Of a DNA stretch of 64,000 bases, positions 39,987 through 59,897 are shown piece after piece. The DNA is taken from positions 1 to 64,000 of the forward strand of contig JACRLN010000006.1 in assembly GCA_016215115.1 (NCBI GenBank), given 5' to 3'. The position numbers and the translations under genes are program-made. The notes below the pieces were generated by a model that searched no databases, was not told the origin of the DNA, and saw nothing but the letters and a program-made list of their open reading frames with translations. The stretch's first letter is position 1; each line of letters begins with the position of its first letter. This stretch comes from Nitrospirota bacterium. Lineage in GTDB: Bacteria; Nitrospirota; Thermodesulfovibrionia; UBA6902.

Positions 39987-40018
39987 TACAAAATTGAAGC
40001 AAAATAAACAATATTGTA
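39987..40018 (+). promoter_or_regulatory. Paired TACA-N4-TGTA-like boxes upstream of nifH
   Basis: TACAAAATTGAA at 39987-39998 and AACAATATTGTA at 40007-40018; each matches TACA-N4-TGTA in seven of eight fixed bases. Start-to-start spacing is 20 bp, identical to the pair before nifB. They lie about 45-75 bp upstream of the -24 element, where enhancer-binding proteins act. Confidence 0.6.
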
Positions 40019-40062
40019 ATTTCTCATAAATCTCTTTACTGAAAAAACAACAGGTTGCCGTC

Positions 40063-40078
40063 TGGCATGATTTTAGCA
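40063..40078 (+). promoter_or_regulatory. Sigma-54 promoter of nifH
   Basis: TGGCATGATTTTAGCA has GG at 40064-40065, ten bases, then GC at 40076-40077, the exact -24/-12 spacing. The predicted transcript starts near 40089, with AAAGGAG at about 40112-40118 before the nifH ATG. Confidence 0.9.
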
Positions 40079-44052: not shown

Positions 44053-44130
44053 GTCATTCCCGCAGTCCTTAAGCGGGAATCCAGAATATTAAGGAACTGG
44101 ATGCCCGATTAAAAACTTCGGGCATGACAA
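44053..44130. repeat. ATTCCCG/CGGGAAT hairpin-pair repeat
   Basis: GTCATTCCCGCAG...GCGGGAATCCAG and CTGGATGCCCG...CGGGCATGAC, filling the gap between nifK and nifEN. It ends 18 bases before the nifEN ATG. Confidence 0.8.
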
Positions 44131-44147
44131 CTTGGATGAGGTTTGTG

Positions 44148-46817
44148 ATGAAAACAAGCATAGACAAATTAACACAGAGTGGATGTGAACGGGAGAAGAA
44201 GGACAAGATCTGCCGTTCACGCGGAGGGGAATCCTGCGCCTTTGACGGCGCAATGATCGTGCTTCAGCCCATTGCCGATACGGCGCATATCGTTCACGGT
44301 CCCATTGCCTGCTGCGGCAATGCATGGGAAGGACGAGGCACGTTGTCTTCAACCGGCAATTTGCACAGAATGGGTTTTGCAACCGACATAAATGAAATGG
44401 ACATTGTCTACGGCTCTGAGGAAAAGCTGTACATGGCGGTTGTTGAAGCCGTTGAAAAGATAAAACCAAAGGCGATATTTGTATATGCAACATGCGTAAG
44501 TGGACTTATCGGAGAGGATATAGAAGCCGCCTGCAAAAAGGCAGAAGCCGAGATCGGAGTTCGTGTCATCCCGGTTAATGCGCCCGGCTTTGTCGGCCCG
44601 AAAAATCTTGGTAATAGAATAGCAGGCGAGGTATTGCTTGATCATGTGATAGGAACCGGCGAGCCTTCAGTCTCAACTGATTACGACATAAACCTCATCG
44701 GAGAATACAACATTGCCGGCGACCTGTGGCATGTTGAACCGGTTTTGAATGATGCCGGGATAAGAATCCTCTCAAGGATCACAGGCGATTCAACTTTTGA
44801 AGAAATAAAGTATGCCCACCGGGCAAGGCTGAATGTAGTTGTATGCAGCCGGGCATTGATAAACGTTGCAAAAGAGATGGAGAGAAAATACGGTATTCCG
44901 TATGTTGAAGTCTCTTTTTTCGGAAAGACGGAGATGATAAAGGCGCTGAGGCGGATCGCCTCAAATTTCAAATCTCAAATTTCAAATCTCAAATTGACGG
45001 AAAAGGTCGAATCGACCGTTGAAGAGAAAGAAAAGCGGCTCGAAGAAAGATTAAAGGCTTACGAGCATCTCAAAGGCAAAAAAGCCGTTCTCTACACCGG
45101 CGGGGTGAAGAGCTGGTCCTTTATCTCCGCTCTTCTTGATCTGGGGATTGAGATAGTTGCCGTTGGCACAAAGAAGAGCACATTTGAAGATGAGGAGAAG
45201 ATGAAAGAGATACTCGGAGAGAATGCGCCGCTTGTTGAAGATGTGACGCCTAAGAATCTCCTGAGACTCATGAAAGAGAGAAACGCTGACATTCTTGTGG
45301 CAGGCGGGAGAAATCAGTATCTCGCTATAAAGGAAGGTTTTCCTTTTGTTGATGTAAATCAGGAAAGGCATACAGCATATGCGGGCTATGAAGGATTGGT
45401 GAATTTAGCGGAGCAGATAAGCAACAGCTTGAGATTTTATGAAAGGGTTCAAGGGGCCAAGGATTCAAGGGGTCAAGTGAAAGGCATGAAAAACAAACCC
45501 TCGAACCCTCGAACCCTTGAATCCTCAACCCCTTTCTTAAAGATCAATCCCCTCAAGCATTCCCAGTCCATCGGGGCTGCGATTGCGTTTCAGGGGATCA
45601 ATAATTCAATCCCGGTTATTCATGGCGCGCAGGGCTGCACGTTCCTGGGTAAAGTTCTTTTGACGAAACATTTCAGAGAACCAATTGCGCTGCAAAGCAC
45701 AAAACTTTTTACTGAAGACGTGGTGATGGGCAGTGATGAAAATCTTATTAAGACCATCGATGGGATTATAGAGAAAAACAACCCCGATGTTATCGGAGTT
45801 TTGACTTCAGGACTCCCTGAGGTGAAGGGGGATGATGTACAATCAGCAATCAGCAATCAGCTGTCAGCTGTCAGCAGCATGAACAAGAAATGCTTTGTTA
45901 TTCATGTCCCAACTCCTGATTATGAAGGCGGGCTTGAGACAGGATATGCAAAGGCGGTAGAAGCAGTCATTGAGTCTATAGTGTCTAAAAATACTGTTGA
46001 CTCCCGACCCTTGACTGATGACCGTCTTGTCAATGTCCTTGCCGGCTCTCATCTGACCCCTGCCGATTTTACGGAGTTAAGGGAAATCATTGAATCGTTC
46101 GGACTCAGGCCGGTAATACTTCCCGACCTTTCCGCGCTTGACGGCAGCAGGCAGGGCTTCTCACCCCTTGCCGCGGGCGGTACCGAGGTTGAGGACATAA
46201 AGACAATGACGCAGGCCGCGTTTACAATAGCGATAGGGAAAAGTATGGAACAGGGCGCAAGGAGGTTGAACGAGAGATGCGGCATTGAGTATACGGTGTT
46301 TGAAAGCCTTTCAGGGCTTAGGGATGGGGAAATTTTCATGCAGATCCTTACATTCCTGAGCGGCAATCCAGTTCCTGCCAAATATGAAAGGCAGAGGCGA
46401 ATCCTGATCGACGGGATGAGGGACGCGCATTCCTATTTCGGTAATAAAAAGATTTGTATTGCCCTTGAGCCTGATATGGCTATTCAAACTTCAAGATGGA
46501 TCAGTGAGATGGGCGCAGAGATAACGCTTGCGGTCATTCCTCAGAATACAGAGAGCGCAAGGGAGATTCTTGCGAAAGAAGTGGTTGTCTCTGACCTGTT
46601 TTCGATAACTGGTGAGCTTGATCTGCTCATTTCAAACTCACATGCTGAAGACACGGCAAAGCGTCTTGACGTCCCTTTGTATCAGATAGGTTTTCCCGTT
46701 TATAAGATTATTGGGAACAATTCGAAGACTACAATCGGATACAGAGGAACTCTTGCAATGATAAATGAAGCGGCTAATATTCTTTTGAGGAAGAGGGAGC
46801 ATGATGGACAAATTTAA
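44148..46817 (+). CDS. nifEN: Fused NifE-NifN FeMo-cofactor scaffold
   Basis: An 889-residue fusion. NifE half: residues about 1-430 (GESCAFDGAMIVLQP, VHGPIACCGNAW, ATCVSGLIGEDIEAACKKAE). NifN half: about 463-889 (GIAFQGINNSIPVIHGAQGC-like AIAFQGI...IHGAQGCTFLGKVLLTKHF, VLTSGLPEVKGDD). NifEN matures the NifB product to the Mo-containing cofactor. ATG 44148 has GAGG seven bases upstream; 44124 lies in a repeat. The linker (about 433-462) and segments near residues 272-283 and 565-577 are encoded by repeat DNA of types found between genes here. Despite this the frame is open throughout. Confidence 0.95.
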   Translation: MKTSIDKLTQSGCEREKKDKICRSRGGESCAFDGAMIVLQPIADTAHIVHGPIACCGNAWEGRGTLSSTGNLHRMGFATDINEMDIVYGSEEKLYMAVVEAVEKIKPKAIFVYATCVSGLIGEDIEAACKKAEAEIGVRVIPVNAPGFVGPKNLGNRIAGEVLLDHVIGTGEPSVSTDYDINLIGEYNIAGDLWHVEPVLNDAGIRILSRITGDSTFEEIKYAHRARLNVVVCSRALINVAKEMERKYGIPYVEVSFFGKTEMIKALRRIASNFKSQISNLKLTEKVESTVEEKEKRLEERLKAYEHLKGKKAVLYTGGVKSWSFISALLDLGIEIVAVGTKKSTFEDEEKMKEILGENAPLVEDVTPKNLLRLMKERNADILVAGGRNQYLAIKEGFPFVDVNQERHTAYAGYEGLVNLAEQISNSLRFYERVQGAKDSRGQVKGMKNKPSNPRTLESSTPFLKINPLKHSQSIGAAIAFQGINNSIPVIHGAQGCTFLGKVLLTKHFREPIALQSTKLFTEDVVMGSDENLIKTIDGIIEKNNPDVIGVLTSGLPEVKGDDVQSAISNQLSAVSSMNKKCFVIHVPTPDYEGGLETGYAKAVEAVIESIVSKNTVDSRPLTDDRLVNVLAGSHLTPADFTELREIIESFGLRPVILPDLSALDGSRQGFSPLAAGGTEVEDIKTMTQAAFTIAIGKSMEQGARRLNERCGIEYTVFESLSGLRDGEIFMQILTFLSGNPVPAKYERQRRILIDGMRDAHSYFGNKKICIALEPDMAIQTSRWISEMGAEITLAVIPQNTESAREILAKEVVVSDLFSITGELDLLISNSHAEDTAKRLDVPLYQIGFPVYKIIGNNSKTTIGYRGTLAMINEAANILLRKREHDGQI
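44961..44995. repeat. Repeat inside the NifE half (CAAATTTCAAATCTC units)
   Basis: Two tandem copies of a 15-base unit TCAAATTTCAAATCT, in frame, encoding SNFKSQISNLKL at the end of the NifE core. Similar AT-rich low-complexity DNA lies between genes at 26527-26606. Confidence 0.7.
45445..45533. repeat. Inverted repeat forming the NifE-NifN linker
   Basis: Left arm GGTTCAAGGGGCC and GGATTCAAGGGGTC, right arm CCCTCGAACCCTTGAATCC. The core GGATTCAAGGG/CCCTTGAATCC is a perfect 11-bp inverted pair. It is typical intergenic repeat DNA, but is translated here as the linker. Confidence 0.75.
45840..45877. repeat. CAGCA/CAGCT repeat inside the NifN half
   Basis: AATCAGCAATCAGCAATCAG followed by CTGTCAGCTGTCAGCAGC, in frame, encoding SAISNQLSAVSS. 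It belongs to the TCAGC family seen between nifH and nifD and before both glnK genes. Confidence 0.7.
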
Positions 46818-49219: not shown

Positions 49220-49251
49220 TACAAAATTGATTCATCAGAAACATAATTGTA
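49220..49251 (+). promoter_or_regulatory. Paired TACA-N4-TGTA-like boxes upstream of nifB
   Basis: TACAAAATTGAT at 49220-49231 and AACATAATTGTA at 49240-49251. Spacing start to start is 20 bp, the same as before nifH, and the first box shares its first 11 bases with the nifH one. Confidence 0.6.
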
Positions 49252-49308
49252 ATTGCTTCACGCCCTTATTATTTCTCTCGAATACACATTATCAACGAGT
49301 TAACAAAT

Positions 49309-49324
49309 TGGCATGTTTATTGCT
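49309..49324 (+). promoter_or_regulatory. Sigma-54 promoter of nifB
   Basis: TGGCATGTTTATTGCT with GG at 49310-49311, ten bases, GC at 49322-49323. The -12 half TTGCT is close to consensus. The nifB ATG is 40 bases downstream. Confidence 0.92.
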
Positions 49325-51248: not shown

Positions 51249-52025
51249 ATGAGGAAAGGACTCTTGTTCCAAAAAAATGAAATAGAAATCCTCGATACAA
51301 CCCTCCGCGAAGGCGAGCAATCAAGAGGCATTCTCTTTACCACAGGACAAAAAATAAAGATTGCTGAAAAGCTTGACGGCTTCGGGGTTGATTATATTGA
51401 ACTGGGACATCCGGCTGCGTCACCGTCTGTACGGAAGGCTGTTACCGTAATTTCCTCGCTGGGGCTGCAGGCGCAAACAGTTGCTCATGCAAGGGCAAAA
51501 AAAGAAGATATAGACATTATCCGGAAATGTAAGACAGCATGGGCGGGGATATTTTCCGGCATCAATACTTTCAGCCTTAACTACCGGTTGCGCTCAGACA
51601 GGAAAACGGTTGTCACTAATATCCTTAATGCCATTAAGTATGCAAAAGACTGCGGCCTCAAGGTCCGCTTCACCTGTGAGGATGCTTCAAGGACCGGCAG
51701 AAAGGAGTTGGTTGACCTCTATGCGATGGCGGTTGCTTCCGGAGCGGACAGGATATGCGTTGCTGATACTGTCGGGATATTAACTCCTTCAAAGACAAAG
51801 GCATTGCTTGCTTACATTAAGAAGTATGTTACAGCAGATATGCACGTCCATTTTCATAATGATTTTGGATTGGCTGTCGCTAATTCGCTTGCAGCATATG
51901 AAGCAGGGGCGCGGGCGCTCGATGTTTCCATTAATGGGATAGGAGAACGCTCGGGTGTGGCAGCGCTTGCTGAGGTTTGTATGGCGCTAAAGCAACTGTA
52001 TACTGTGAATAATATCTGGATCTGA
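51249..52025 (+). CDS. nifV: Homocitrate synthase NifV, N-terminal part (frameshifted)
   Basis: A 258-residue TIM-barrel part of homocitrate synthase. LDTTLREGEQSRG holds the catalytic loop; HVHFHNDFGLAVANSLAAYEAGA carries the metal-binding HxH; SINGIGERSGVAALAE is conserved. It makes the homocitrate ligand of FeMo-cofactor from 2-oxoglutarate and acetyl-CoA. The frame stops at TGA 52023, but family similarity continues in another frame from about 52019 (DLKLLPELSG), as if one base were missing near 52017. No sigma-54 site is obvious; it may be cotranscribed with the hesA-like gene. Confidence 0.85.
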   Translation: MRKGLLFQKNEIEILDTTLREGEQSRGILFTTGQKIKIAEKLDGFGVDYIELGHPAASPSVRKAVTVISSLGLQAQTVAHARAKKEDIDIIRKCKTAWAGIFSGINTFSLNYRLRSDRKTVVTNILNAIKYAKDCGLKVRFTCEDASRTGRKELVDLYAMAVASGADRICVADTVGILTPSKTKALLAYIKKYVTADMHVHFHNDFGLAVANSLAAYEAGARALDVSINGIGERSGVAALAEVCMALKQLYTVNNIWI

Positions 52026-52390
52026 AGCTGCTGCCTGAACTTTCAGGAATGGTCTCAAGGTTCACAAGATCGCCAATTGAATACTCACGGCCTATAGTAG
52101 GCAGAAATGTATTTTCTCATAAAGGCGGCATGCATAGCGCATCTGTTGTGAAAAACCCTGAAACGTATGAGCCCTTTCCACCGGAAATCCTCGGAGCAGA
52201 CCGCACAATCGTTATCAGCAGACTAATCGGCAGACACGGCCTTGAAGGCGTATTGAAATCAGACGGGAAGCTCTCACATAAGGATATCGCACATATGGTC
52301 AAAAAATTAAAACGCAACGACAGTAAAGAATTTACAGACAAAGAGATAGACAAGGTGATGAGAATTTTCCAGAATGAAGACAATTCCTGA
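52026..52390 (+). pseudogene. nifV: NifV C-terminal part in the shifted frame
   Basis: Reading the third frame gives LKLLPELSGMVSRFTRSPIE, then YSRPIVGRNVFSHKGGMHSASVVKNPETYEPFPPEILGADRTIV, the normal NifV continuation with the FxHxGGMH element. The only ATG (52049) has no usable ribosome site at proper distance. Either a real broken gene, a programmed shift, or a sequencing or assembly error. Clostridial NifV is naturally split into two subunits, so a functional split is possible but less likely. Confidence 0.75.
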
Positions 52391-52520: not shown

Positions 52521-52570
52521 TACAAAATTGAGCCTACAATATTGTTATAAAAGGACATAATTGTAGGCTC
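52521..52570 (+). promoter_or_regulatory. TACA-N4-TGTA-like boxes and long dyad before the Fis-like gene
   Basis: TACAAAATTGAG (52521), TACAATATTGTT (52535) and GACATAATTGTA (52553) all match the boxes before nifH and nifB. In addition GAGCCTACAAT (52530-52540) and ATTGTAGGCTC (52560-52570) form a perfect 11-bp inverted pair with centres 30 bp apart. Confidence 0.6.
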
Positions 52571-52610: not shown

Positions 52611-52626
52611 TGGCACAGTTTTAGCA
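52611..52626 (+). promoter_or_regulatory. Sigma-54 promoter of the Fis-like gene
   Basis: TGGCACAGTTTTAGCA with GG at 52612-52613, ten bases, GC at 52624-52625. The -24 half TGGCAC is consensus. Likely drives the Fis-like gene and perhaps porin-amtB-glnK. Confidence 0.93.
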
Positions 52627-52651
52627 ATATACAAAAACAGAGGAAGCAACC

Positions 52652-52837
52652 ATGAATTCATTGAAGGAACAAATCAGGGAGATTGAGAAGGAAGAAATAA
52701 TCAGGGCATTAAAAGAATGCGACTGGGTTATGGCAAAAGCTGCAAGACAGCTCGGAATAACAGAGAGGATGATCGCGTACAAGATAAAAAAATACGGGAT
52801 AAGGAGGGAGGCAGAAGGAGTAAGGGGTAAGGGGTAA
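52652..52837 (+). CDS. Stand-alone NifA-like Fis-type HTH protein
   Basis: A 61-residue protein that is only a DNA-binding domain: EIEKEEIIRALKECDWVMAKAARQLGITERMIAYKIKKYGI. The W-V-x-A-K-A-A-R-x-L-G-x-T-x-R-x-I-A-Y-K-I pattern is that of the C-terminus of NifA, not of Fis itself or of typical NtrC. GAGGAAGC lies just before the ATG. The tail EAEGVRGKG is encoded by a GTAAGGG repeat. With no AAA+ domain it cannot activate sigma-54 alone; it may compete with or help NifA at the shared boxes. That role is inference. Confidence 0.8.
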   Translation: MNSLKEQIREIEKEEIIRALKECDWVMAKAARQLGITERMIAYKIKKYGIRREAEGVRGKG

Positions 52838-52896
52838 GGAGTATGCAAAGGACAAGCAGGCTTTAGCGTGCGAAATAAATTAATTGGAGGTGCGTG

Positions 52897-54003
52897 ATGA
52901 AAGTTTTAAAAATAATGATCTTGATAATGGCTTTGACTTTGTCCGGTTTTGTAAGCAGTTTAAAAGCCGAGGAGACCAAAACAGGAAGTATGACCCTTGA
53001 TGAATTCAAAAAAACGCTCGGCATGAGCGTTTATCTGCAGGGCGGTTACACCTATAACTTCAGGAACCCTGATTCGCAGGAAAATGAACTCCGTGTTTTT
53101 GACCATAAGGCAAACAGCTTCACATTAGACCTTGCACAATTGGTGTTTGTTAAAGATGCGCCAATGAATGGGGTCGGCTATAAATTTAAATTATCGGCAG
53201 GTGAAACTGCAAAATGGATACATTCAAGAGGTCTTGGCGCTGCTGATGATTCATTTGATCTTACCGAGGCTTATATTAGTTACCTTGCACCTCTCGGTAA
53301 GGGGTTAAGGTTCGATTTCGGTAAATTTGTCACATATCACGGCGCTGAGGTAATTGAGGCAAAGGATAACCCCAATTACTCACGTTCGTTTCTCTTTAAC
53401 TATGCGATTCCATTTATACATACGGGATTGAAAGTCAGCTACCCGTTCACAGAGACTTTTAATGCCGGTATTCACATAGTTAACGGTTGGGACAATACGG
53501 ATGACAACAACAAGAGCAAGACAATCGGACTGAACGCAGGTTATGCACCAATGGAGCAGCTATCTATTTTACTTAACCTCATGTACGGGCTCGAGAAGGA
53601 TGATAACAATTCAGATAACAGATTCCTCTTTGACTGGGTTGGGATTGTAAAACCGGTAAAGAATTTATCCTTCGTTCTCAATGCAGATTACGCAACAGAG
53701 GAAGAATCAGCCGCTGACGGCGATACCGCAAAGTGGTATGGGTTTGCAGGCATAGTGAAATATGATTTTAATGACCCCTTCAGTCTGTCTCTCAGGGCGG
53801 AATATTTTAATGATAAAGACGGAGTGAGGACAGGGGCGGAGCAGGCATTAAAGGAGATTACCGTAACTCCGGAAATAAGGCTGGCAAACGGTCTTATTAT
53901 AAGGCCTGAATACAGGCATGACTGGTCTGATAAAGAGGTGTTTGATTCAGGTCAGGCAAAGAAGCAGGATACAATTGCGGTTGGCGTGATGTATACCTGG
54001 TAA
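52897..54003 (+). CDS. Outer-membrane porin
   Basis: A 368-residue beta-barrel protein. Signal peptide MKVLKIMILIMALTLSGF to about SLKAEE. The barrel has alternating strands (YLQGGYTYNFRNP, SFTLDLAQLVFVKDAP, LRFDFGKFVTYHGAEVIE) and ends in the BAM signal VGVMYTW (terminal aromatic). It resembles the BBP2/DUF1597-type porins. GGAGG is six bases before ATG 52897. The place between a nif-type regulator and amtB suggests a nitrogen-limitation porin. Confidence 0.82.
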   Translation: MKVLKIMILIMALTLSGFVSSLKAEETKTGSMTLDEFKKTLGMSVYLQGGYTYNFRNPDSQENELRVFDHKANSFTLDLAQLVFVKDAPMNGVGYKFKLSAGETAKWIHSRGLGAADDSFDLTEAYISYLAPLGKGLRFDFGKFVTYHGAEVIEAKDNPNYSRSFLFNYAIPFIHTGLKVSYPFTETFNAGIHIVNGWDNTDDNNKSKTIGLNAGYAPMEQLSILLNLMYGLEKDDNNSDNRFLFDWVGIVKPVKNLSFVLNADYATEEESAADGDTAKWYGFAGIVKYDFNDPFSLSLRAEYFNDKDGVRTGAEQALKEITVTPEIRLANGLIIRPEYRHDWSDKEVFDSGQAKKQDTIAVGVMYTW

Positions 54004-54030
54004 TTTAAAAAAATGAAATCAGGAGGCAAC

Positions 54031-55380
54031 ATGAAAAGGTTATTAAGTATCTTGATGATGATTGGTTTGTTGAGTTTTGCAAACCGTGGCTTTGCAGAGG
54101 ATGCACAGGTTGAGACTTCGGTTCCTGCAGCGGTTGAACAGACTGCGCCTGCTCCAAAAGTAGATACAGGAGACACTGCGTGGGTTTTAATCTCCACCGC
54201 CCTTGTCATGCTGATGACGCCGGGGCTTGCACTTTTTTATGGAGGGATGGTCCGGCGCAAAAATGTATTAGGGACAATAATGCAGAGCTTCATAGCGCTC
54301 GGTGTTATAACGATCATATGGGTGCTTTACGGGTACAGCCTGGCATTCGGCCCTGATGTTGGACACGTTATAGGCAATCTTGACTGGCTCGGGTTAAAAG
54401 GCGTAGGGCTTGATCCGAATCCTGATTATTCAGCCACGATCCCGCATCAGGCATTCATGATATTCCAGATGATGTTTGCAGTAATTACACCGGCGCTGAT
54501 AACCGGCGCATTTGCTGAACGGTTCAAATTCAAGACGTATCTTTTATTCCTTGTGCTCTGGGCGACATTTGTATATTTCCCTCTTGCACACTGGGTATGG
54601 GGAGTAGGGGGCTGGATAAGAAACCTCGGGGCCCTTGATTTTGCCGGCGGTCTTGTAGTGCATATCAGTTCAGGGGTATCGGCTTTGGCTGCTGCAATTG
54701 TTGTCGGGAAAAGAAAGGGATACAGCAAAGAACCGATGATGCCGCACAACATTACCATGACCTTTCTTGGCGCCGCGTTATTGTGGTTTGGCTGGTTCGG
54801 GTTTAACGGAGGAAGCGCAGTTGCATCAGGCGCTCTTGCAACGTCTGCATTTGTTGTTACGCATATTGCTACTGCAGCAGCGGCGTTATCATGGATGATC
54901 GCTGAATGGATGCAGAGAGGAAAACCGACAGCCCTCGGCGCTGTATCAGGAGCAGTTGCAGGACTTGTTGCAATTACGCCTGCCTCGGGTTTCGTTGGCC
55001 CAATGTCTTCTATTATTATCGGGCTTGCAGCCGGGGTAATCTGTTACATGGCAGTTAATCTCAAGTCAAAACTCGGGTACGATGACTCTCTCGATGCTGT
55101 AGGTGTTCACGGCGTCGGCGGCACCTGGGGCGCAATTGCGACCGGTCTCTTTGCATCAAAGGCGATTAATTCAGCAGGCAATGACGGTTTGTTTTTCGGT
55201 AACGCATCACTTCTGTCAAGCCAGCTAATCAGCATCGGCGCTGCATGGATATATTCTTTTGTGATTACGCTGATTATATTAAAAGTCCTTGATGCAACAA
55301 TGGGACTGAGGGTTGACGACCAGAGCGAATTTGTAGGACTGGACCATGCACAGCACGGAGAAAGCGGGTACACATTATAG
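54031..55380 (+). CDS. amtB: Ammonium transporter AmtB, first copy
   Basis: A 449-residue ammonium channel with a cleaved signal peptide (MKRLLSILMMIGLLSFANRG, cut near GFAED). Eleven TM helices follow, with LFYGGMVRRKNVLGTIMQS, the twin His sites (VVHISSGVSALAA and GVHGVGGTWGAIATGLF), and the C-terminal tail GLRVDDQSEFVGLDHAQHGESGY that docks GlnK. AGGAGG precedes ATG 54031. It pairs with the next gene, glnK. Confidence 0.96.
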   Translation: MKRLLSILMMIGLLSFANRGFAEDAQVETSVPAAVEQTAPAPKVDTGDTAWVLISTALVMLMTPGLALFYGGMVRRKNVLGTIMQSFIALGVITIIWVLYGYSLAFGPDVGHVIGNLDWLGLKGVGLDPNPDYSATIPHQAFMIFQMMFAVITPALITGAFAERFKFKTYLLFLVLWATFVYFPLAHWVWGVGGWIRNLGALDFAGGLVVHISSGVSALAAAIVVGKRKGYSKEPMMPHNITMTFLGAALLWFGWFGFNGGSAVASGALATSAFVVTHIATAAAALSWMIAEWMQRGKPTALGAVSGAVAGLVAITPASGFVGPMSSIIIGLAAGVICYMAVNLKSKLGYDDSLDAVGVHGVGGTWGAIATGLFASKAINSAGNDGLFFGNASLLSSQLISIGAAWIYSFVITLIILKVLDATMGLRVDDQSEFVGLDHAQHGESGYTL

Positions 55381-55765
<385 letters not shown>

Positions 55766-55767
55766 AC

Positions 55768-55797
55768 TGTAGGGGCACGGCGCGCCGTGCCCCTACA
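55768..55797. repeat. 30-bp perfect palindrome, TGTAGGGGC family, copy 2
   Basis: The same nine-base arms as at 34408, with a different but still palindromic 12-bp core ACGGCGCGCCGT. Placed two bases after the glnK stop, it may serve as transcription end. Confidence 0.85.
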
Positions 55798-55893
55798 AAA
55801 TTGTAGTTCCTACAGTTTTGTAGGCTATATTTGCATCTCATTGTATTTTCACATGAAATTAGGAGAAAAGCTGTAAGTTCCTACATTTTTGTA
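55794..55893 (+). promoter_or_regulatory. Three perfect TACA-N4-TGTA boxes before the second amtB
   Basis: TACAAAATTGTA (55794-55805, overlapping the palindrome end), TACAGTTTTGTA (55811-55822) and TACATTTTTGTA (55882-55893). The last two are flanked as CCTACA-N4-TGTAGG. The final box lies about 45 bp upstream of the -24 element, as at nifH. Confidence 0.6.
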
Positions 55894-55937: not shown

Positions 55938-55953
55938 AGGCATAGCTTTTGCG
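55938..55953 (+). promoter_or_regulatory. Sigma-54 promoter of the second amtB
   Basis: AGGCATAGCTTTTGCG with GG at 55939-55940, ten bases, GC at 55951-55952. Transcription should begin near 55964, leaving a leader of about 25 bases. Confidence 0.85.
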
Positions 55954-55987: not shown

Positions 55988-57277
55988 ATGAAATTGATCT
56001 TTATTCTTATGTTGTCCCTGTTGCTGCCAAATATGAGCTATGCACAGGAAACTAACGCCATAAACAGCGGCGACACTGCCTGGATGCTTATTTCAACGGC
56101 GCTCGTTACGCTTATGACGCCGGGACTCGCATTATTTTACGGCGGAATGGTCAGGAGGAAGAACGTGCTCGGCACAATCATGCACAGTTTCATAATGCTT
56201 TTTATGGTGAGTGTAATCTGGGTAATATGGGGATATACGCTTGCGTTCGGACCGGACAAGGGAGGTATTATCGGCGGGCCGGAGTGGTTTGGATTGAACG
56301 GAGTTGGACAGACTCCGTCACCTTTTGCGCCGACCGTTCCTCATCTGCTGTTCATGATGTTTCAGGGAACTTTCGCAGTGATAACTCCTGCGCTTATTAC
56401 AGGCGCATTTGCCGAAAGGATGAAATTCTCCGCATTAATCATCTTTACCGCCATGTGGGTAACGCTGGTTTATTCTCCGTTATGCCACTGGGTATGGGGC
56501 GGAGGATGGATGGCAAAGACCCTTGGCACTCTTGATTTTGCAGGCGGAATTGTTGTTCATATTAGTTCAGCCGTTGCCGCTTTGGCGGCGATAATAGTGA
56601 TCGGCAAGCGCAGGGGATACGGTAAGGAACCGATGCTGCCGCATGATCTGCCGATGACCATTCTTGGACTGGCGCTCTTATGGTTCGGCTGGTTCGGCTT
56701 TAACGCAGGCAGTGCGTTGACATCAGGCGGGCTTGCATCTGTTGCATTCGTTACGACAAATACTGCCGCAGGCGCTGCAGCAATGAGCTGGATGGTCATT
56801 GAATGGCTGCAGAGAGGGAAACCCACAGCGCTCGGGGCGATGAGCGGAGCAGTTGCCGGTCTTGCCGGGATCACACCCGCTGCCGGTTTTGTCACCCCTT
56901 TATCGTCAATTGTGATTGGAATAATTGCAGGGTTATTATGTTACGTAGGCGTTAATATGAAATCAAAATTCGGTTACGACGATTCCCTTGACGTAATCGG
57001 TATTCACGGTGTCAGCGGCACGTGGGGGACATTGGCAGTCGGACTTTTTGCATCAGCCGCGATAAATCCCGCGGGCAAAGACGGTTTATTCCATGGCAAT
57101 TCCTCCCTGTTTGTAACCCAGGGTATTTCTGTGATAGTATCTTTTGTATTTGTCTTTACCGCAACGCTTATTATCCTCAAACTCGTTGACTGGATAGTAG
57201 GATTGAGGGTAAAGGACGGAGAAGAGTTTCTCGGTCTGGACCAGTCGCTTCACGGAGAGAGCGCTTATACACAATAG
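55988..57277 (+). CDS. amtB: Ammonium transporter AmtB, second copy
   Basis: A 429-residue ammonium channel closely similar to the first copy. Signal peptide MKLIFILMLSLLLPNMSYAQ, then LFYGGMVRRKNVLGTIMHS, VVHISSAVAALAAI, GIHGVSGTWGTLAVGLF and the GlnK-docking tail GLRVKDGEEFLGLDQSLHGESAY. ATG 55988 has GGAGGGAG upstream. It has its own sigma-54 promoter and is followed by its own glnK, so the unit is a duplication with independent control. Confidence 0.96.
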   Translation: MKLIFILMLSLLLPNMSYAQETNAINSGDTAWMLISTALVTLMTPGLALFYGGMVRRKNVLGTIMHSFIMLFMVSVIWVIWGYTLAFGPDKGGIIGGPEWFGLNGVGQTPSPFAPTVPHLLFMMFQGTFAVITPALITGAFAERMKFSALIIFTAMWVTLVYSPLCHWVWGGGWMAKTLGTLDFAGGIVVHISSAVAALAAIIVIGKRRGYGKEPMLPHDLPMTILGLALLWFGWFGFNAGSALTSGGLASVAFVTTNTAAGAAAMSWMVIEWLQRGKPTALGAMSGAVAGLAGITPAAGFVTPLSSIVIGIIAGLLCYVGVNMKSKFGYDDSLDVIGIHGVSGTWGTLAVGLFASAAINPAGKDGLFHGNSSLFVTQGISVIVSFVFVFTATLIILKLVDWIVGLRVKDGEEFLGLDQSLHGESAYTQ

Positions 57278-57313: not shown

Positions 57314-57661
<348 letters not shown>

Positions 57662-57664
57662 CAT

Positions 57665-58354
57665 ATGTCAGTGCTTATCTGTAAAAATATTAAAACAGAG
57701 GGTCCCGGGACGATTGAGGATTATCTGAAGGAGCAGAAGGTCCGGTACACAATAGTTGATCTGTCGGAAGGTGAAGGCATTCCTGTAACGAACAGTTTCA
57801 GCACTCTTGTAATGATGGGCGGACCGATGAGCGTTAATGAAGATGGGATATATCCCTACATAAAAGAGGAAGAAAAACTTGTCAGGGATTTTATTGCGGA
57901 AGGGAAGAAGATTTTAGGTGTATGCCTCGGAGCCCAGATAATGGCAAAGGCTTTGGGCTCGAGGGTCTATGCAGGCCCCCAAAAGGAAATCGGATGGTAT
58001 AATATTGACCTGACGGAAGAAGGGGTGAAAGATCCGCTTATGAAAAACCTCGCATTTCATCCGCAGGTAAGGGACTTCTGGAAGAAGTTTGAAGTCTTTC
58101 ACTGGCACGGTGAAACTTTTGATATACCGGCAGGCGCGGTGAGACTCGCTTCCTCAGCGCTCTATCCGAACCAGGCCTTTAGGTATGGTTATAAGGCATA
58201 TGCATTTCAGTTCCACATAGAGGTGAGAAAGGAGATGATATTGGAATGGTTGAAGGATGAACCGAATTTTCAACAGCTTGAAAGAGAGACAGAAACATTT
58301 TTTCATGAATATAGAGGACGGGCGGAGAATTTCTATAAAGGATTTTTCTCGTAG
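57665..58354 (+). CDS. Class I glutamine amidotransferase-like protein
   Basis: A 229-residue GATase1 protein. Oxyanion strand VMMGGPMSVNED, nucleophile elbow ILGVCLGAQIMAKALG (Cys near residue 88), and the His/Glu pair YAFQFHIEV. It resembles the stand-alone GMP-synthase-like amidotransferases (GuaA N-terminal type), which may act as gamma-glutamyl hydrolases. Three bases from glnK and just upstream of glnA: a role in glutamine or gamma-glutamyl compound turnover is inferred. Confidence 0.85.
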   Translation: MSVLICKNIKTEGPGTIEDYLKEQKVRYTIVDLSEGEGIPVTNSFSTLVMMGGPMSVNEDGIYPYIKEEEKLVRDFIAEGKKILGVCLGAQIMAKALGSRVYAGPQKEIGWYNIDLTEEGVKDPLMKNLAFHPQVRDFWKKFEVFHWHGETFDIPAGAVRLASSALYPNQAFRYGYKAYAFQFHIEVRKEMILEWLKDEPNFQQLERETETFFHEYRGRAENFYKGFFS

Positions 58355-58484: not shown

Positions 58485-59897
58485 ATGACACCAAAAGACG
58501 TAATCAAGATGGCGCAGGAGAACAAGGCGGTTATGGCGAATTTCAAGTTCCTTGATTTTCCCGGCATCTGGCAGCATTTTGCAGTGCCGATAGCAGAATT
58601 AAAAGAGGAGATATTTGAGGAAGGACTCGGCTTCGACGGCTCTTCAATCAGAGGATGGCAGGCGATCCATACATCAGACATGCTGATAATCCCGGACCCG
58701 AAGACCGCATTCATGGACCCGTTCATGGAGTATCCGACGATAAGCTTGATCTGCAATGTTGTAGACCCGATTACAAAGGAATTTTACACGAGGGACCCGA
58801 GATACATTGCTCAGAAGGCGGAGGCATATCTGAAATCAACCGGCATAGGCGATACCGCCTACTTCGGTCCTGAGGCGGAGTTCTTTATTTTCGATGACGT
58901 AAGATTTGACCAGAACGCGCAGAGTGGATACTATTTTATAGACTCTGTCGAAGGCATCTGGAATTCGGGACGGGTGGAGAATCCGAACCTCGGATATAAA
59001 CCGAGGCACAAAGAAGGTTACTTCCCCGTACCGCCGACAGACAGCCTTGTAAATATCAGGACGGAGATGGTTCAGGAGATGCTGAAATGCGGCATCTATG
59101 TAGAGAGGGAGCATCATGAGGTTGCAACCGCAGGACAGGCCGAGATCGATATGAGATTTGATTCCCTGGTAAACATGGCTGACAAAAATATGCTTTTCAA
59201 ATACATAATCAAGAATGTTGCAAGACGGCACGGCAAGACCGTAACATTCATGCCAAAGCCTTTGTTCGCCGATAATGGCTCCGGTATGCACTGCCACCAG
59301 AGCATATGGAAAGGCGGTAAACCTCTGTTTGCAGGCAACGGGTATGCAGGATTGAGCGACATGGCGCTTTACTATATCGGCGGCGTGTTGAAACATGCGA
59401 AGGCGCTTGCCGCTATTACCAACCCGACCACCAATTCCTACAAGAGGCTGACGCCCGGATTTGAAGCGCCGGTCAATCTTGCATATTCGGCAAGAAACCG
59501 CTCCGCATCAATAAGAATCCCGACCTATTCTGCAAACCCGAAGGCAAAGAGAGTTGAGGTAAGGTTCCCTGACCCTTCATGCAATACCTATCTGGCATTT
59601 AGTGCGATGATGATGGCAGGTCTTGATGGGATTGAGAACAAGATTCATCCCGGCGAGCCGCTTGACAAGGACATTTATGAACTTGGTCCCGAAGAACTGG
59701 CAAATGTGCCGACAATGCCGGGAACTCTTGAAGACGCACTTAACCATCTGGAAGTGGACAATGAATTCCTGATGAAGGGCAATGTCTTTACAAAGGACGC
59801 CATTGAAAAATGGATAAGCTACAAGAGGACGAATGAGGTTGACGCATTGAGACTAAGACCACATCCGTATGAGTTCTTCCTGTATTATGATATTTAA
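58485..59897 (+). CDS. glnA: Glutamine synthetase type I
   Basis: A 470-residue GSI of the beta type. Conserved stretches are [42 protein letters not shown]-like [30 protein letters not shown] and NRSASIRIP. The adenylylation site is Tyr398 in [10 protein letters not shown], and glnE is nearby, so covalent control is expected. It makes glutamine from glutamate, ammonia and ATP. AAAGGAGG precedes the ATG. Followed by a strong terminator. Confidence 0.97.

Follow-up and report, generated by a model that had tools for sequence, protein, structure and literature searches.

Why should a genome that encodes a complete NifA also keep a separate gene for the DNA-binding end of that activator? The question arises in the window, a 64,000-nucleotide stretch of contig JACRLN010000006.1 from a Nitrospirota bacterium of the class Thermodesulfovibrionia, where a 61-residue reading frame has its own promoter and stands ahead of ammonium transporter and PII genes. 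The gene and the elements in front of it are as follows, the latter as read from the sequence.

52522 to 52531, no strand assigned: upstream box 1, ACAAAATTGA
52536 to 52545, no strand assigned: upstream box 2, ACAATATTGT, a perfect palindrome
52555 to 52564, no strand assigned: upstream box 3, ACATAATTGT, ending 46 bp before the promoter (modal distance in relatives, 44–47 bp)
52611 to 52626, forward strand: sigma-54 promoter TGGCACAGTTTTAGCA, with GG at -24 and GC at -12
52639 to 52644, forward strand: likely ribosome-binding site (AGAGGA) in a leader predicted at about 15 nt
52652 to 52837, forward strand: lone NifA-type helix-turn-helix (HTH) protein, 61 aa, with ATG at 52652 and stop codon at 52835 to 52837; recognition helix at residues 38–48, with E38 and M40 diagnostic

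In a domain search of the 61-aa product, HTH_8 (Pfam, 53.6 bits against a gathering cut-off of 22) and HTH_50 were the only domains above cut-off, and neither a GAF nor an AAA+ sigma-54 interaction domain was found. The NCBIfam NifA profile (TIGR01817, cut-off 528.85) gave 42.1 bits and covered only profile positions 488–530 of 534, which bears out an earlier sequence-only reading that the product corresponds to the C-terminal HTH of NifA and to no other part of it. The AlphaFold2 model contains three helices (residues 4–22, 27–34 and 38–48; pLDDT 88), followed after residue 50 by a tail that is poorly predicted and variable in sequence among relatives. When this model was submitted to Foldseek, DNA-binding domains of sigma-54 activators ranked first and Fis next, with best TM-scores of 0.68–0.80 (normalised by query length) and E-values that the short length of the protein keeps weak. 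The nearest solved structures, by both sequence and fold, are sigma-54 activator domains of Aquifex aeolicus (PDB 2m8g; NtrC1, 4l5e; NtrC4, 3e7l and 4fth); these were cut from full activators, whereas the lone HTH is a natural stand-alone protein. Conservation across the family is highest in the helix-turn-helix, and L4, E12 and C23 are conserved outside the recognition helix.

Each of the 47 genomes searched in the order gave a match with an E-value no higher than 1e-9. The best match in most of them was a short frame (54–139 aa) scoring far above the NifA of the same genome; only a long NifA-like frame was seen in G002, G018, G030, G031, G032 and G043. Fifty-three short frames were retrieved from relatives, the window gene included. 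Many members of the class Thermodesulfovibrionia carry the family, and diverged forms occur beside amtB in other Nitrospirota classes. Among the best 80 matches listed from the all-genome collection, nearly all were labelled Nitrospirota/Nitrospirae or Thermodesulfovibrionia, and a few had other or generic labels. Diverged lone HTH genes sit side by side as pairs, or one precedes each of two amtB genes (L292, L298). The open-licence literature searched yielded nothing relevant on a stand-alone HTH linked to NifA or amtB in these bacteria.

A short product without GAF and AAA+ domains could also be what remains of the 3′ end of a decayed nifA, or a reading frame that arose by chance. However, the genome has an intact NifA of 510 aa on another contig (C47), in which a domain search found GAF, Sigma54_activat and HTH_8; it scores 579.9 bits against the NCBIfam profile, above the cut-off of 528.85, and in the HTH it shares 55% identity with the lone HTH. 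A sigma-54 gene is present as well. Pooled over 12 related lone HTH genes (first 51 codons), pN/pS was 0.10, and dN/dS between these genes and the window gene, where calculable, was 0.01–0.09, values that indicate strong purifying selection on the family. A FastTree phylogeny of 122 domains, among them 50 lone HTH and 42 NifA domains, placed all 50 lone domains in one clade (support 0.81), distinct both from NifA domains encoded in the same genomes and from those of other activators. The alignment has about 50 columns and the tree taken alone is weak evidence; the residue signature at positions 38 and 40 agrees with it. The intact NifA, the order-wide conservation, the family's own promoter, its clade and the purifying selection rule out debris or a chance frame, to which we assign a negligible probability. 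We conclude, on sequence evidence, that the lone HTH is a real gene product, a NifA-type DNA-binding domain that stands by itself and is conserved in relatives.

To place this gene in a regulon, its upstream region has to be read beside two nif promoters of the window.

39988 to 40078, forward strand: nifH promoter, with boxes at 39988 and 40008 and a sigma-54 element at 40063–40078
49221 to 49324, forward strand: nifB promoter, with boxes at 49221 and 49241 and a sigma-54 element at 49309–49324

The initial claims of a consensus sigma-54 promoter and of boxes like those of nifH and nifB both held: TGGCACAGTTTTAGCA lies at 52611–52626, and the three palindromic, A+T-rich boxes of the lone HTH gene match the two at nifH and the two at nifB, each of the seven being at most one mismatch from an ACAAWATTGT-type consensus. 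Throughout the 2.8-Mb genome, a box combined with a sigma-54 promoter was found at three sites (nifH, nifB and the lone HTH gene), and the reversed control pattern at none.

Relatives have the same architecture. A sigma-54 promoter lies upstream of 49 of the 53 lone HTH genes, mostly 27–43 bp before the start codon, and 46 of these 49 promoters carry one or more ACA-N4-TGT boxes (3.4 expected), with 2.3 boxes per promoter versus 0.21 in Markov controls. Box spacings cluster at 13–14 and 19–21 bp; from the end of the last box to the promoter the distance is mostly 44–47 or 64–66 bp. The nifH promoters of relatives share both boxes and register with the lone HTH gene: in either case boxes begin roughly 55 and 75 bp ahead of the promoter. 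The canonical proteobacterial enhancer, TGT-N10-ACA, was not supported as the repeating element: it occurs in 16 of 49 lone HTH promoters versus 3.7 expected, an excess that arises because the boxes are spaced 20 bp, and the repeating unit is ACA-N4-TGT. Counted from the first base of the -24 element, the start codon comes after 27 bp at L052, L058, L061, L065, L066 and L072; this distance would put it at the predicted transcription start, so that some lone HTH mRNAs are probably leaderless.

Downstream, the gene order in the window is HTH, porin, amtB, glnK, amtB, glnK, GATase, glnA.

52894 to 54003, forward strand: beta-barrel porin (BBP2), the next gene of the operon
54013 to 55380, forward strand: ammonium transporter gene amtB1
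55427 to 55765, forward strand: PII protein gene glnK1
55795 to 55892, no strand assigned: three further boxes (55795, 55812 and 55883) before amtB2
55938 to 55953, forward strand: weaker sigma-54-like site AGGCATAGCTTTTGCG before amtB2, read from the sequence
55988 to 57277, forward strand: amtB2, with ATG at 55988 (the reading-frame list starts it at TTG 55949)
57323 to 57661, forward strand: glnK2
57665 to 58354, forward strand: class I glutamine amidotransferase (GATase)
58485 to 59897, forward strand: glutamine synthetase gene glnA, identified from its translation and from homologues downstream in relatives

The combined box and promoter pattern misses the amtB2 site, with its three boxes and weaker sigma-54-like element. 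Among 52 lone HTH genes in the retrieved loci, four near contig ends were left out; all 48 scored had nitrogen-assimilation genes downstream on the same strand (amtB in 37, porin-amtB in 4, GATase-glnA in 5, glnA in 1 and PII in 1). Loci with two copies (L060, L068, L072, L074, L075 and L083) have a sigma-54 promoter before each copy. The lone HTH leads this predicted amtB-glnK-glnA operon, including in genomes that lack nif. The suggested look for the same gene beside nif clusters of relatives thus bore out its conservation but not a tie to nif, since the partner is the amtB-glnK-glnA operon; of the 47 genomes in the order only 20 gave a nifH match, whereas most have the lone HTH. Near-complete genomes without detected nifH (for example G041, G042, G028 and G007) still carry the lone HTH, which rules out a nif-specific gene, and they also carry a NifA-like protein. 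Because the two persist in such genomes, the NifA-like protein looks like a general nitrogen regulator of which nif would be one target.

Whose sites are the boxes? Three genomes of one genus (group f11), judged Thermodesulfovibrio-like from size and organisation, have the order boxes, sigma-54 promoter, porin, amtB, glnK, nifA, with no lone HTH at the locus. Because boxes and NifA occur there without it, we infer that the boxes are primarily NifA sites. At L280, L281 and L282, the boxed operon of amtB and glnK includes nifA itself, an arrangement that hints at positive autoregulation by NifA at these loci. Among the class genomes tested that had no lone HTH match at the threshold used, NifA was kept in G093, G103 and G147, and neither protein was found in G050, G118, G157, G160, G162, G227 and G248. 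Conversely, eight genomes, several of them incomplete, have a lone HTH without a detectable full-length NifA-type protein. The lone HTH might have replaced a lost NifA there, but contigs missing from the metagenome-assembled genomes may also explain the absence. A second nifH type (about 70% identical) at L104, L105 and L107 has a sigma-54 promoter from which the boxes are mostly absent; TTTTTGTAAACTTCT-like repeats stand in their place and are perhaps sites of a different activator.

The lone HTH resembles NifA (TIGR01817) in HTH sequence, fold and box-type promoters, and differs from it in lacking GAF and AAA+ domains, in E38 and M40, and in belonging to the amt operon. Since it has neither GAF nor AAA+ domain, it cannot open sigma-54 promoters. 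The recognition helix of the window protein reads T-E-R-M-I-A-Y and does not match the NifA pattern T-x-R-Q-[IL]-[GN]-Y. Position 38 is E in 98% of the lone family and usually P or S in NifA; position 40 is nearly always M (rarely I or V) in the lone family and Q in every full-length NifA domain of the comparison. In an alignment to Fis and NtrC, these positions correspond to R85 and T87 of Fis, in the recognition helix. As E38 and M40 sit in this helix, the DNA specificity of the lone HTH may resemble that of NifA without being the same, and another site might be preferred. The specificity attributed to the protein at the outset thus has to be revised: comparison of the recognition helices upheld its kinship with the NifA HTH and did not find the same specificity residues, two family-conserved positions departing from NifA.

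Among the proposed roles, competition with feedback is the most economical, although the direction of the effect, competitor or helper, is itself something we infer. Under nitrogen limitation, full-length NifA bound to the boxes would activate the amtB-glnK-glnA operon, whose transcript would yield a mini-NifA as its first product. Retaining most of the DNA-contact surface without the AAA+ domain, this protein could occupy NifA boxes without activating, and NifA would thereby be limited at the operon of the mini-NifA itself and probably also at nifH and nifB. We consider such negative feedback on the NifA regulon, by a mini-NifA that NifA activates and that competes at its boxes, to have a little less than an even chance of being correct. 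Its extension to the whole class, as a dedicated anti-activator that titrates NifA off enhancers and couples nif to ammonium-assimilation capacity by a route other than NifL/PII, is slightly less probable. More broadly, the lone HTH probably serves as an integral feedback element of the switch that it shares with the nitrogen-fixation genes. The E38 and M40 differences and the eight genomes with a lone HTH but no detectable NifA weigh against competition. In Gluconacetobacter, the NifA domain in isolation is a monomer with weak affinity for its site (Kd ~20 uM; PMC10590331), so competition would require a high protein level or cooperativity on the box array; the place of the gene at the head of the operon and the arrays of boxes would suit both.

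The same facts also fit the main rival, a helper that cooperates with NifA. Such a co-activator would bind beside NifA on the multi-box array, bend or load the enhancer and raise activation in a positive feedback. Most promoters have two to three boxes in fixed helical phase (13–14 and 19–21 bp), which exceeds the need of one NifA dimer, and Fis, of the same fold, is a DNA-bending protein; yet a helper appears dispensable where genomes combine NifA and the same amtB boxes without a lone HTH, and no activation surface is visible on the protein. We regard this role as unlikely, though worth serious consideration. Slightly more doubtful is a Fis-like independent regulator, derived from NifA but changed in specificity, which would control other genes and merely be induced by NifA. 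The specificity positions, conserved yet different from those of NifA (E38 and M40 versus P/S and Q), would suit it, as would the stand-alone DNA-binding domains Fis and BldC, precedents given in PMC6428758; against it, the strict gene position argues for a local role, and genomes with two copies keep both behind sigma-54 promoters before nitrogen-assimilation genes. Finally, the protein might contact NifA, PII (GlnK) or RNA polymerase instead of DNA. It is co-encoded with glnK and has conserved residues outside the recognition helix (L4, E12 and C23), but the maximum of conservation in the helix-turn-helix points to DNA binding, and we consider a modulator acting at the protein level improbable.

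Parallels with known stand-alone domains bear on all these readings. Fis is 98 aa long with an extra N-terminal part, bends DNA and acts at degenerate sites genome-wide. It is likewise a stand-alone HTH_8-type protein; in contrast, the nearest relative of the lone HTH is NifA, its gene stays within the nitrogen regulon, and nothing precedes the three predicted helices of its 61 residues where Fis has an N-terminal region and dimer helix. A derivation of Fis from an NtrC domain has been proposed (Morett and Bork 1998, as cited in PMC6428758), which would make the two cases parallel: the DNA-binding domain of an activator turned into a separate gene. BldC of Streptomyces, a 68-residue stand-alone DNA-binding domain related to MerR-family domains, is itself a regulator (PMC6428758), but of the MerR winged-helix type and in another pathway, whereas the lone HTH is NifA-type and linked to nitrogen. 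Nitrogen regulation is poorly mapped outside the classical model groups. A conserved stand-alone NifA domain tied to the amt-glnK operon would offer a directly testable feedback element there, and competition at the boxes would explain how genomes of the class keep the NifA regulon in check.

Two further features of the window concern neighbouring nif genes. A nifV-like gene at 51249–52390 is in two frames (51249–52025 and 52049–52390); at L047 and L052 the two pieces are 801 bp apart and in frame with each other, so the split in the window is a frameshift or an assembly error. NifE and NifN are fused in a protein of 897 aa (44124–46817), an arrangement termed uncommon and reported for Thermodesulfovibrio (PMC12501866).
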